NCBI GenBank assembly: GCA_018814765.1
Contig: JAHIZJ010000056.1
Span: 1-32,903, forward strand
Reading direction: 5' to 3'
DNA length: 32,903 nucleotides
Origin: Patescibacteria group bacterium
GTDB taxonomy: Bacteria > Patescibacteriota > Patescibacteriia > JAHIZJ01
Below the pieces are notes generated by a model. The model made no database searches, was not told the origin of the DNA, and worked only from the letters and a program-made list of their open reading frames with translations. How positions within the stretch are numbered: position 1 is the first letter of the stretch; each line of letters opens with the position of its first letter. A program made the translations under genes and the position numbers. Below, piece after piece: positions 3,143-5,312 of the stretch.

Positions 3143-4420
3143 ATGACGAAGAATACAATAACGAAGAAAAAACTCAAAAAAGCGGCTTCTAAGGCCAAAA
3201 CAACAAAAAAAATCAAGACAACAAAAAAGCTAAAAGTTTCAGTTGCAAAGAAAAAACCCGCTAAAAAGATTGTTGTCAAAAAGCGGACAAAGAAGCCTAC
3301 AGCAAAATCAGCCAAAGTAAAAAAAGAAGAAAAACCGCAAATTTCTATGGAGGCAGTAGAGGATTTATTAAGACGCGGACGGCAACGTGGCTTTGTTACA
3401 GAAAAAGAGATACTCTATTCATTTCCTGAAGTAGAGGAATATTTAGATGAATACGAAGATCTATTGGATAGTTTTAAAGAACAGGGCGTATCCATCGTAG
3501 AGTCTGATGCTGGCATACTTGATGACAAGGAAGAAGAGACCCCTGCAGAAAAAACCAAAGGACTGGCAGAAAGCCAACGTTTTGATTTGAGTGATATCTC
3601 TGATGATTCAATACAGATGTATTTACGAGAGATTGGCAAAGTCCCGCTTTTGAAACAAGAAGAAGAAGTCCAGCTAGCTAAGCTTAATGAAAAAGGAGAC
3701 ATTGAATCTGCCAAAAAAATGGTTCAAGCAAACCTGAGGCTGGTTGTTTCCATCGCTAAGAAATTTACTGGGCGTTCGCTTTCTCTCCTGGATCTTATAC
3801 AAGAGGGCAATATAGGTTTATTTAGGGCGGTGGAGAAATTTGACTATCGTAAGGGTTATAAATTTTCTACCTATGCCACCTGGTGGATACGTCAAGCTAT
3901 TACTAGAGCCTTGGCTGACCAGTCAAGGATCATCCGTATCCCTGTTCATATGGTGGAGACTATAAACAAATTTCAGCAGATTGAGCGCTCACTCATACAA
4001 GACTTAGGGCGAGAACCGCTACCTGAGGAAATCGCAGCTGAAATGGGTGAGGAAGTAGATAAGGTAAGGCATATTATGAAGATATCCCAAGACACTGTTT
4101 CTCTCGAAGCCTCTGTGGGGGAAGACGATGAAGATTCTACTCTGGGTGACTTTATTGAAGACGAAAAAACAATCTCGCCTGACAGGATTGCCTCTTTACA
4201 ATTATTAAAAGATCATGTAAAAGATATTATAAAAGAACTGCCACCACGTGAGCAGAAGATACTTGAAATGAGGTTTGGTTTACTTGATGGCGTGGCTCAT
4301 ACATTAGAAGAAGTGGGACAGGAGTTTGGTGTTACCCGTGAACGTATTCGTCAGATTGAAGCCAAGGCGCTAGAAAAGATTCAGGAACATAGAGGGATGA
4401 GAAAGTTGAAGGATTATTAA
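3143..4420 (+). CDS. rpoD: Primary RNA polymerase sigma factor RpoD/SigA
   Basis: The housekeeping sigma-70 factor that directs RNA polymerase to promoters. The 425 residues contain region 1.2 ([12 protein letters not shown]), region 2 with the core-binding and -10 recognition helix ([18 protein letters not shown], then [15 protein letters not shown]), region 3 ([13 protein letters not shown]) and region 4 with the -35 helix-turn-helix ([20 protein letters not shown]). All diagnostic residues are present, and short region-1.1-like sequence lies before region 1.2 (about 70-115). The first 66 residues are an unusual low-complexity tail in which lysine dominates, with Ala and Thr, resembling histone H1 tails. 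That tail is not part of the conserved sigma core. The gene follows dnaG. Confidence 0.96.
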
Positions 4421-4485
4421 GTTTGCCCTTTAAAAAATGGATATGATAATTATGGAGCCCCAAGCTCCGGAGTAGCTCAATGGTA

Positions 4486-4525
4486 CCCGCCATGCAAGAC
4501 GAGCTTGCGAGGCGTTGCGGGCGGG
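4486..4525. repeat. 40-nt palindromic insertion in the tRNA copy
   Basis: The insert begins CCCGCC and ends GGCGGG, giving terminal inverted repeats. Inside, GCAAG pairs with CTTGC as a second hairpin (4494-4508). Removing it restores the tRNA D-loop sequence exactly. Confidence 0.7.
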
Positions 4526-4533
4526 GAGCAACC

Positions 4534-4563
4534 TCCGCCAGAGGCGGATCAGCCTTTGGCTGA
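4534..4563. repeat. 30-nt double-hairpin insertion in the tRNA copy
   Basis: Two adjacent perfect hairpins, TCCGCC-aga-GGCGGA and TCAGCC-ttt-GGCTGA, sit inside the anticodon stem of the tRNA copy. Removing the 30 nt joins ACC to GGCTGT exactly as in the intact gene. Such GC-rich paired hairpins resemble the intergenic palindromes elsewhere in the window. Confidence 0.7.
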
Positions 4564-4594
4564 GGCTGTGAGTTGAAAAATAGTTTATTAAAAA

Positions 4595-4831
4595 ATGTAC
4601 ATAGTTTATACTATAAAAAGTCTAAAAAATCACAAAAGGTATGTTGGTTATACTGGTAAGAACGTTCAAGTAAGATTGTCTGAACATAATAGAGGATGCA
4701 ACAAGTGGTCAAGAGAAAACAGACCTTTCAAATTAATTTATCATGAAAGTTTTAGTACAAAAAGCGAAGCAATTAAAAGAGAAAAATTCTTAAAATCAGG
4801 TCAGGGTAGAAAGTTTTTAGATAAAAATTAA
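4595..4831 (+). CDS. GIY-YIG domain nuclease
   Basis: A stand-alone GIY-YIG nuclease of 78 residues. The two signature strands are seen as VYTIKS (4-9) and RYVGYTG (15-21), followed by the Arg/His/Asn helix RLSEHNRG (27-34), PFKLIYHESF with the metal-binding Glu, and the conserved SEAIKREKFLKSGQGRKFL end. The family includes small UPF0213-type proteins and homing endonucleases, and a DNA endonuclease activity is expected from the fold. The gene lies between a broken tRNA-Asn 5' half and the complete intron-containing tRNA-Asn, so a role in mobility of the locus is plausible but unproven. The leader is AT-rich without a Shine-Dalgarno site. Confidence 0.85.
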   Translation: MYIVYTIKSLKNHKRYVGYTGKNVQVRLSEHNRGCNKWSRENRPFKLIYHESFSTKSEAIKREKFLKSGQGRKFLDKN

Positions 4832-4848: not shown

Positions 4849-5140
4849 TCCGTGGTAGCTCAATGGTAGAGCAACCGGCTGTGAACATAAACGCAGCTCC
4901 CGACGGAAACGTTGGGATGAACTTTCCGGGATAACGGTGAAGGCTAAGCCTGCCTTATGTAGGTATGCTAATACCGTGGGAACCCACCTATGCTAAAGAT
5001 TTGGTGGGGCGCCGTAGAGACTAGATACCGGAATACCTAAATCCCCTCGGGAGATAAGGTAAAGATATAGTCCGTGCCGTATGGAAACATATGGATTACA
5101 TGTAACCGGTAGGTTGCCAGTTCGAGTCTGGCCCACGGAG
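4849..5140 (+). tRNA. tRNA-Asn (GUU) with intron
   Basis: Exons 4849-4882 and 5103-5140 join into a 72-nt cloverleaf. The acceptor stem is TCCGTGG/CCACGGA, the D arm GCTC/GAGC, the anticodon stem ACCGG/CCGGT with loop CTGTTAA (anticodon GTT), and the T arm GCCAG/CTGGC with loop TTCGAGT. The discriminator is G, as in bacterial tRNA-Asn, and CCA is not encoded. If the intron boundary is ignored the loop reads CTGTGAA, which suggests GTG (His). However, G73 and the lack of a -1 G pairing with C73 argue against His, and only the GUU reading puts a U before the intron and a G at its end. Flanks 4836-4847 and 5141-5152 also pair. Confidence 0.88.
4883..5102 (+). ncRNA. Group I self-splicing intron in tRNA-Asn
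   Basis: The 220-nt intron splits anticodon positions U35 and U36. The 5' exon end GGCTGT (4877-4882) pairs with intron GCAGCT (4893-4898), forming P1 with a U-G pair at the splice site. The intron ends in G (5102). The catalytic core shows the AGAGACTAGA segment (near 5018) and AAGATATAGTCC (near 5062), which form P7 through GACTA/TAGTC. ACCT/AGGT form P8 between them. A late hairpin CCGTATG-GAAA-CATATGG (near 5078) is P9 with a GNRA loop. No ORF lies inside the intron. It should splice with a guanosine cofactor. Confidence 0.88.
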
Positions 5141-5163
5141 CTGGGTGCTTATGTAAAGCATTG

Positions 5164-5233: not shown

Positions 5234-5312
5234 CCCCCTCAGCGCTGATTGCTTAGTCCTGAGCGAAGATCCTGAGTTCGTCGAAGGAGCGAAGTCGAAG
5301 GGTTTTGGGGGG
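5234..5312. repeat. C-rich to G-rich hairpin with CGAAG repeats
   Basis: Starts with CCCCC and ends with GGGGGG, so the ends can pair. The inside carries iterated TCCTGAG and CGAAG/GTCGAAGG units of a kind seen as dispersed intergenic repeats in many bacteria. It shares GCTGATTG with the hairpin at 6335-6373, and both precede HEPN-like genes. Confidence 0.5.

Follow-up and report, generated by a model that had tools for sequence, protein, structure and literature searches.

How does one half of a tRNA gene, interrupted by two G+C-rich hairpin-forming sequences, come to stand upstream of a complete gene for the same tRNA? The locus that raises this question lies in the window, by which we mean the whole stretch of DNA analysed (32,903 nt), a single contig (G000:C16) of a 1.38 Mb draft genome in 139 contigs. 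Its layout runs from a palindrome-bearing tRNA 5' half through a GIY-YIG open reading frame (ORF) to a complete tRNA-Asn, with the following features:

3143-4420, plus strand: RpoD-like sigma factor gene, the conserved neighbour upstream of tRNA-Asn
4466-4571, plus strand: tRNA-Asn 5' half, a relic, covering tRNA positions 1-36 (block matches), with two inserts inside
4472-4485, plus strand: left copy of the longest exact direct repeat, GTAGCTCAATGGTA (right copy at 4855-4868)
4486-4525, no strand assigned: insert 1, a 40-nt imperfect palindrome (CCCGCC...GGCGGG) in the D-loop, after tRNA position 20; dispersed copies
4534-4563, no strand assigned: insert 2, a 30-nt double hairpin, TCCGCCAGAGGCGGA-TCAGCCTTTGGCTGA, after tRNA position 28; dispersed copies
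4595-4831, plus strand: putative free-standing GIY-YIG endonuclease ORF, 78 aa (PF01541, E 1.1e-16)
4849-5141, plus strand: complete tRNA-Asn(GUU) with a group I intron inside (ARAGORN with introns)
4883-5102, plus strand: the group I intron, 220 nt, without an ORF, in the anticodon loop between CTGT and TAA (RF00028; ARAGORN with introns)

The interrupted tRNA-Asn half

Removal of 4486-4525 (40 nt) and 4534-4563 (30 nt) regains positions 1-36 of tRNA-Asn with two mismatches to 4849-4884, both in the acceptor stem, and the coordinates given for this in the initial annotation proved right. The matching blocks are 4466-4485 (tRNA positions 1-20), 4526-4533 (21-28) and 4564-4571 (29-36), and the order 3' of the sigma factor gene is TCCGGAGTAGCTCAATGGTA-40 nt-GAGCAACC-30 nt-GGCTGTGA. 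When the half is aligned with five intact tRNA-Asn 5' ends, namely the window's inner copy and those of four relatives, the sole large gaps measure exactly 40 and 30 nt; the relatives' intact tRNA-Asn genes, free of insertions, are exact empty sites for both inserts. The continuation blocks GAGCAACC and GGCTGTGA have no second occurrence in this order and at comparable spacing within the window. Both inserts had been described as exact palindromes; they are indeed self-complementary and hairpin-forming, but neither is a single exact palindrome, the 40-nt insert being an imperfect nested one and the 30-nt unit, TCCGCCnnnGGCGGATCnGCCnnnGGCnGA, consisting of two abutting 15-nt hairpins. The fold of 4455-4580 beats that of 198 of 200 dinucleotide shuffles (z -3.1). 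In line with the initial annotation, no target duplication was seen at the inserts in the half.

Within the window, neither Rfam at gathering thresholds nor ARAGORN without introns gave a match; the group I core of the intron in the inner tRNA-Asn reaches 48.5 bits with RF00028 (E 3.9e-11), just below the gathering score of 50. P14 and Bp1_738 sRNA matches at the inserts score 17-18 bits against a gathering score of 45 and were attributed to chance. A role for the interrupted half as the cell's tRNA-Asn is ruled out by the intact intron-bearing copy downstream and by tRNA-Asn genes on two other contigs. The acceptor sequence of the half (TCCGGAG) differs from that of the intact inner copy (TCCGTGG), and in view of this difference the inner tRNA may have been acquired separately, as a whole gene, and not have arisen by simple duplication. 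A 3' relic of the outer tRNA, sought downstream within the window, was not found.

The closest match of the sigma factor is in a Candidatus Kerfeldbacteria metagenome-assembled genome (76% identity), which places the bacterium among the Patescibacteria. A further G+C-rich repetitive stretch at 5234-5310 (TCCTGAGCGAAGATCCTGAGTTCGTCGAAGGAGCGAAGTCGAAGGG) resembles one in locus L037. An HNH-type ORF, recognised by eye, lies within the tRNA-Asn intron in G014 and G001; in G026 and G002 it precedes the tRNA gene (loci L022, L023, L025 and L028).

Dispersal, boundaries and targets of the inserts

Searches of the genome and of related genomes found both inserts dispersed, and the copies elsewhere share their boundaries, which bears out the view that these are elements with defined ends. 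Search hits together with BLAST of fetched loci place the 40-nt unit in the D-loop of tRNA-Thr (L046) and tRNA-Phe (L302) relics, with a variant in a tRNA-Lys relic (L280), and also in the 5' leader of tRNA-Gln (L348) and in intergenic DNA (L347). The 30-nt unit has four copies in its own genome, with up to three mismatches allowed, and was found in 83 of 240 class genomes, for which a reversed-pattern control returned no matches.

We inspected 112 distinct copies of the 30-nt unit for their flanks, reading frame and nearby intact copies. At position -2, two bases before either end, T stands in 79% and G almost never, and the adjoining base (-1) is T or C in 79%; as judged from these flanks, the target preference of the unit is TY on one side and RA on the other (T-pyrimidine, then purine-A). 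Among long ORFs that span the unit, 33 of 39 read it in the same phase, which gives the peptide SAxGGSAxGG (binomial p 6e-11). In glycyl-tRNA synthetase (GlyRS) from the window's own genome, and in PheRS beta and the PEP synthase PpsA from relatives, this peptide faces a gap of about 10 residues in PDB homologs. The GlyRS copy (L004:1466-1495, on G000:C53) is read in frame as SAKGGSASGG; the same site is also occupied in G014 and G055, so that insertion of the 30-nt unit can be old.

The unit is also found within partial copies of tRNA and 16S genes, and an intact copy spanning the junction lies near 11 of the 112 copies, compared with 1 of 531 random positions (Fisher p 3e-8). Nine of these eleven are RNA genes (tRNA-Asn, Arg, Glu and Val, and twice the 5' end of 16S). 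The element sits in a duplicated 16S rRNA 5' end at L003:1501 (G000:C99:13482) and at L203:1201 (G052:C1), both times between TTT and GAT; at L003 the intact 16S comes about 30 nt further downstream. In two of the tRNA cases (L159 and L162) a GIY-YIG ORF separates the interrupted half from the intact tRNA, just as in the window, and the ORF was therefore followed across the class.

GIY-YIG genes and tRNA relics across the class

Relatives of the GIY-YIG family occur in 76 of 115 class genomes. Among the 91 loci that ranked best in one search, 61 have an intact tRNA on the same strand at or just past the end of the ORF. Upstream of the ORF, a 5' part of the matching tRNA is present in 42 of these 61 (score at least 12), compared with 4 of 122 controls, some of which perhaps pass owing to a tRNA type shared between the compared loci; tRNA detection was done partly with a custom alignment script, and the comparison genomes are mostly drafts. 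These 42 loci represent 14 tRNA species (Gln, Leu, Ser, Glu, Tyr, Lys, Asn, Val, Asp, Met, Phe, Pro, Thr and Gly). Their 5' halves usually have the D-loop broken by a G+C palindrome: in 35 of 42 relics the D-arm is where the first tRNA block stops, the 35 nt that follow it rank in the top 5% of folding windows of their own locus in 31 of 42, and in 17 of 42, compared with 1 of 126 controls, the tRNA sequence resumes exactly after a palindrome-ended insert. About 10 of 58 loci also have a relic of the 3' part on the downstream side; in several of these, palindromes occupy the T- or the anticodon loop.

The sigma/tRNA-Asn locus has the same architecture with other palindromes in LSNR01000016.1 (Parcubacteria) and LBQR01000004.1 (Candidatus Moranbacteria), and its GIY-YIG ORF is present in some genomes and absent in others. 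Relic loci keep an intact tRNA, and gene function is thus preserved around the optional ORF. The initial annotation held that palindromic elements had inserted into tRNA sequence, which is supported by the empty sites in relatives, the copies with the same boundaries elsewhere and the tRNA resumption at other relics. It also took them to be caught while entering an RNA gene, and this part is not supported: the interrupted copy is a stranded relic, a partial duplicate 5' of an intact tRNA-Asn in an architecture that recurs throughout the class, so that the palindromes probably did not hit a working gene.

The association of relic and ORF has exceptions. Relic/intact pairs without a GIY-YIG ORF occur at L161, L163, L168, L024 and L042, and nested tRNAs without one at L024, L037, L042 and L046. 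The inner tRNA of L046 lies in the anticodon loop, where the window's tRNA-Asn holds its group I intron, and that of L037 at the intron position of the same-genus genome G014 (L025). The tRNA-Thr cluster at L046:1400-1950 (G040) comprises an interrupted 5' half, then a complete tRNA-Thr that is nested in the anticodon loop of another and flanked by a palindrome.

Inverted repeats around the ORF, tested at all GIY-YIG loci, are clear only outside tRNAs, where repeats scoring at least 10 surround 9 of 30 ORFs, compared with 1.6% of mismatched pairs. At L304 and L312 the ORF lies in a hairpin loop of a sequence that, by eye, resembles RNase P RNA (rnpB). At L337 (G000:C59), L321 and L330, matching inverted repeats (CCCCACACCAATA/TATTGGTGTGGGG) bound the ORF in the manner of terminal inverted repeats.

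Proposed origin of the locus and its alternatives

We propose that a homing-like GIY-YIG gene probably entered a tRNA gene, leaving a complete copy, and that the stranded half then gathered loop-targeting palindromes. The corresponding steps would be that (i) the putative GIY-YIG enzyme opens the tRNA gene, making the break, and the GIY-YIG gene (4595-4831) is placed inside the tRNA gene or at that gene's 5' end; (ii) repair leaves the ORF with a complete tRNA downstream (4849-5141), while a useless copy of the 5' half stays upstream; (iii) two independently mobile G+C-rich palindromes enter the relic, in the D-loop and beside the anticodon loop, by an insertion that may favour DNA hairpin loops; (iv) palindromes persist where they are harmless, that is, in tRNA and rRNA relics, in intergenic DNA and in protein loops, as an in-frame Gly/Ser/Ala linker. 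The GIY-YIG gene would thus have come first and the palindromes later. The features drawn upon here, namely the relic, the inserts and their boundaries, the dispersed copies, the empty sites, the recurrence, the in-frame bias and the target preference, are all read from the sequence.

Relics may keep their inserts for want of constraint, or because a half without interruption would interfere with tRNA folding or destabilise the cassette. That nearly all relics contain palindromes seems too regular a pattern to have built up by passive accumulation alone, and we suggest that it could reflect loop-targeting, selection for disabling a half that competes in folding or promotes excision, or a single GIY-YIG/palindrome system. 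This regularity weakens the proposed sequence of entry and later gathering, as do the acceptor difference, the missing 3' relic in the window and the relic/intact pairs without an ORF.

The last of these options deserves to be weighed as an alternative in its own right, although we regard it as considerably less probable than the homing-like scenario. The GIY-YIG nuclease would mobilise the palindromes as non-autonomous elements or end sequences, as RAYT does REPs, and would cut hairpin loops; the palindrome in the loop of a relic would then mark the cassette's cut site, not a subsequent insertion. Tentatively, one mobile GIY-YIG/palindrome system in Patescibacteria might target DNA hairpin loops, above all the D- and anticodon loops of tRNAs. 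Its autonomous units could conceivably be the nuclease together with the complete tRNA left, and its non-autonomous ones the bare palindromes and in-frame protein linkers. A palindrome does stand at the interruption point of nearly every relic, tRNA homology often ends 5-16 nt past the last palindrome, and GIY-YIG ORFs outside tRNAs sit in hairpin loops (the 9 of 30 above, two of them in rnpB-like sequence). Counts of 30-nt copies and of GIY-YIG genes correlate (rho 0.42, p 4e-6; odds ratio 10 for presence; 115 genomes, kinship ignored), but this correlation leaves phylogeny out of account, the palindrome families vary in sequence between relics, at least one relic (L268) joins its ORF directly without a palindrome, and for many in-frame palindromes there is no ORF in the vicinity.

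Y1 transposases act on hairpins, and the window's own genome has 12 Y1_Tnp (PF01797) genes, the highest number among the 115 class genomes searched. That RAYT-type Y1 transposases mobilise the palindromes, with the GIY-YIG association incidental, nevertheless appears improbable: 10 genomes carry copies of the element without a detected Y1_Tnp, hairpins are not enriched around the 12 genes of the window's genome, and the correlation of 30-nt copies with Y1_Tnp (rho 0.23) falls to a partial value of 0.08 when GIY-YIG is included (115 genomes, kinship ignored). The palindrome copies thus track GIY-YIG better than Y1, which speaks against a REP/RAYT mechanism and matches what a single GIY-YIG/palindrome system would predict.

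The recurrence of the arrangement at the sigma/tRNA-Asn locus in several families would also be expected if the interrupted half were not a relic but a conserved functional RNA (a decoy, a leader or another structured element). We consider this very unlikely, given that insert sequence, length and position vary between genomes, that the inserts match dispersed elements, that the same-family relatives G001 and G002 are without the half, and that relics derive from many different tRNAs. An assembly or chance artefact, for which the 139-contig draft state of the genome and the draft state of many compared genomes might speak, has a negligible probability, because dozens of independent genomes show this architecture, some on contigs of hundreds of kb and some in named public records.

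Implications

Our findings point to selfish DNA living in RNA genes by an undescribed route, and the relic loci exemplify one such route by which essential RNA genes are occupied without splicing. Small GIY-YIG genes are very common in Patescibacteria; in the open-access subset of the literature that was searched, their link with dispersed short palindromes and partial tRNA and 16S duplications is new. The loci form a natural set with defined boundaries, a target preference, empty sites and intermediate states, with which the long-open question of how REP- or RPE-like palindromes move becomes testable. Annotators be warned that a tRNA half in these genomes, or an SAxGGSAxGG insertion in one of their enzymes, is the footprint of an element. 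Should the less favoured single system prove true, it might amount to a REP/RAYT-like partnership based on a structure-directed GIY-YIG enzyme.

Comparison with known systems

We do not place the elements in any known class, since they depart from Rickettsia palindromic elements (RPEs) in length and host and from REPs in the tag and the flanking Y1 genes, and since homing by the GIY-YIG gene is putative. Fungal mitochondrial double-hairpin elements are G+C-rich and a few tens of nucleotides long. Those of Allomyces are double hairpins with evidence of mobility, according to the citation of Paquin 2000 in PMC7218506. By analogy, the 30-nt unit resembles them in its two adjacent hairpins and its dispersal, but is bacterial, encodes an in-frame peptide and is tied to tRNA halves.

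Rickettsia palindromic elements are small dispersed palindromes that are inserted in frame in conserved proteins, and RNA genes (tmRNA and M1 RNA) contain them as well (PMC2229807, PMC3767692). The initial annotation had drawn this comparison, which stands as a likeness: the 30-nt unit is likewise found in frame in conserved proteins (33 of 39 in one phase) and in RNA genes. In contrast to the roughly 100-150 bp of the Rickettsia elements, those described here measure 30 and 40 nt, their host belongs to Patescibacteria and not to Rickettsiales, and they are concentrated in tRNA relics, many with a GIY-YIG gene beside them. REP sequences, which are dispersed palindromes of 20-40 nt whose host genomes may encode Y1 transposases (PMC3733652), agree in size range, dispersal and the possible presence of such transposases in the genome. 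However, the 30-nt unit ends in TCCGCC/GGCGGA and showed no GTAG/CGTC tag, with only a TY preference in the flank, hairpins are not enriched beside the Y1_Tnp genes of the window's genome, and copies here lie in frame in coding sequence.

Insertions in the rRNA genes of CPR bacteria lie mostly at the top or base of rRNA stem-loops, and GIY-YIG is described there as sparse and outside homing (PMC11270868). The bacterial group is the same and GIY-YIG proteins are present in both cases, but that study treats rRNA genes, and a text search of it found no mention of tRNA or palindromes. In fungi, endonuclease ORFs split genes (Allomyces atp6; Glomus atp6, atp9, cox2 and nad3), a duplicate part restores the gene and the native end is stranded (PMC3630166). 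The loci described here follow the same split-and-restore logic, with the difference that a tRNA is split, the 5' part is stranded and interrupted by palindromes, and the GIY-YIG protein is minimal, at 78 aa. With its endonuclease domain (PF01541), its optional insertion at a fixed gene and the preserved function of that gene, the GIY-YIG ORF would recall a free-standing homing endonuclease gene.
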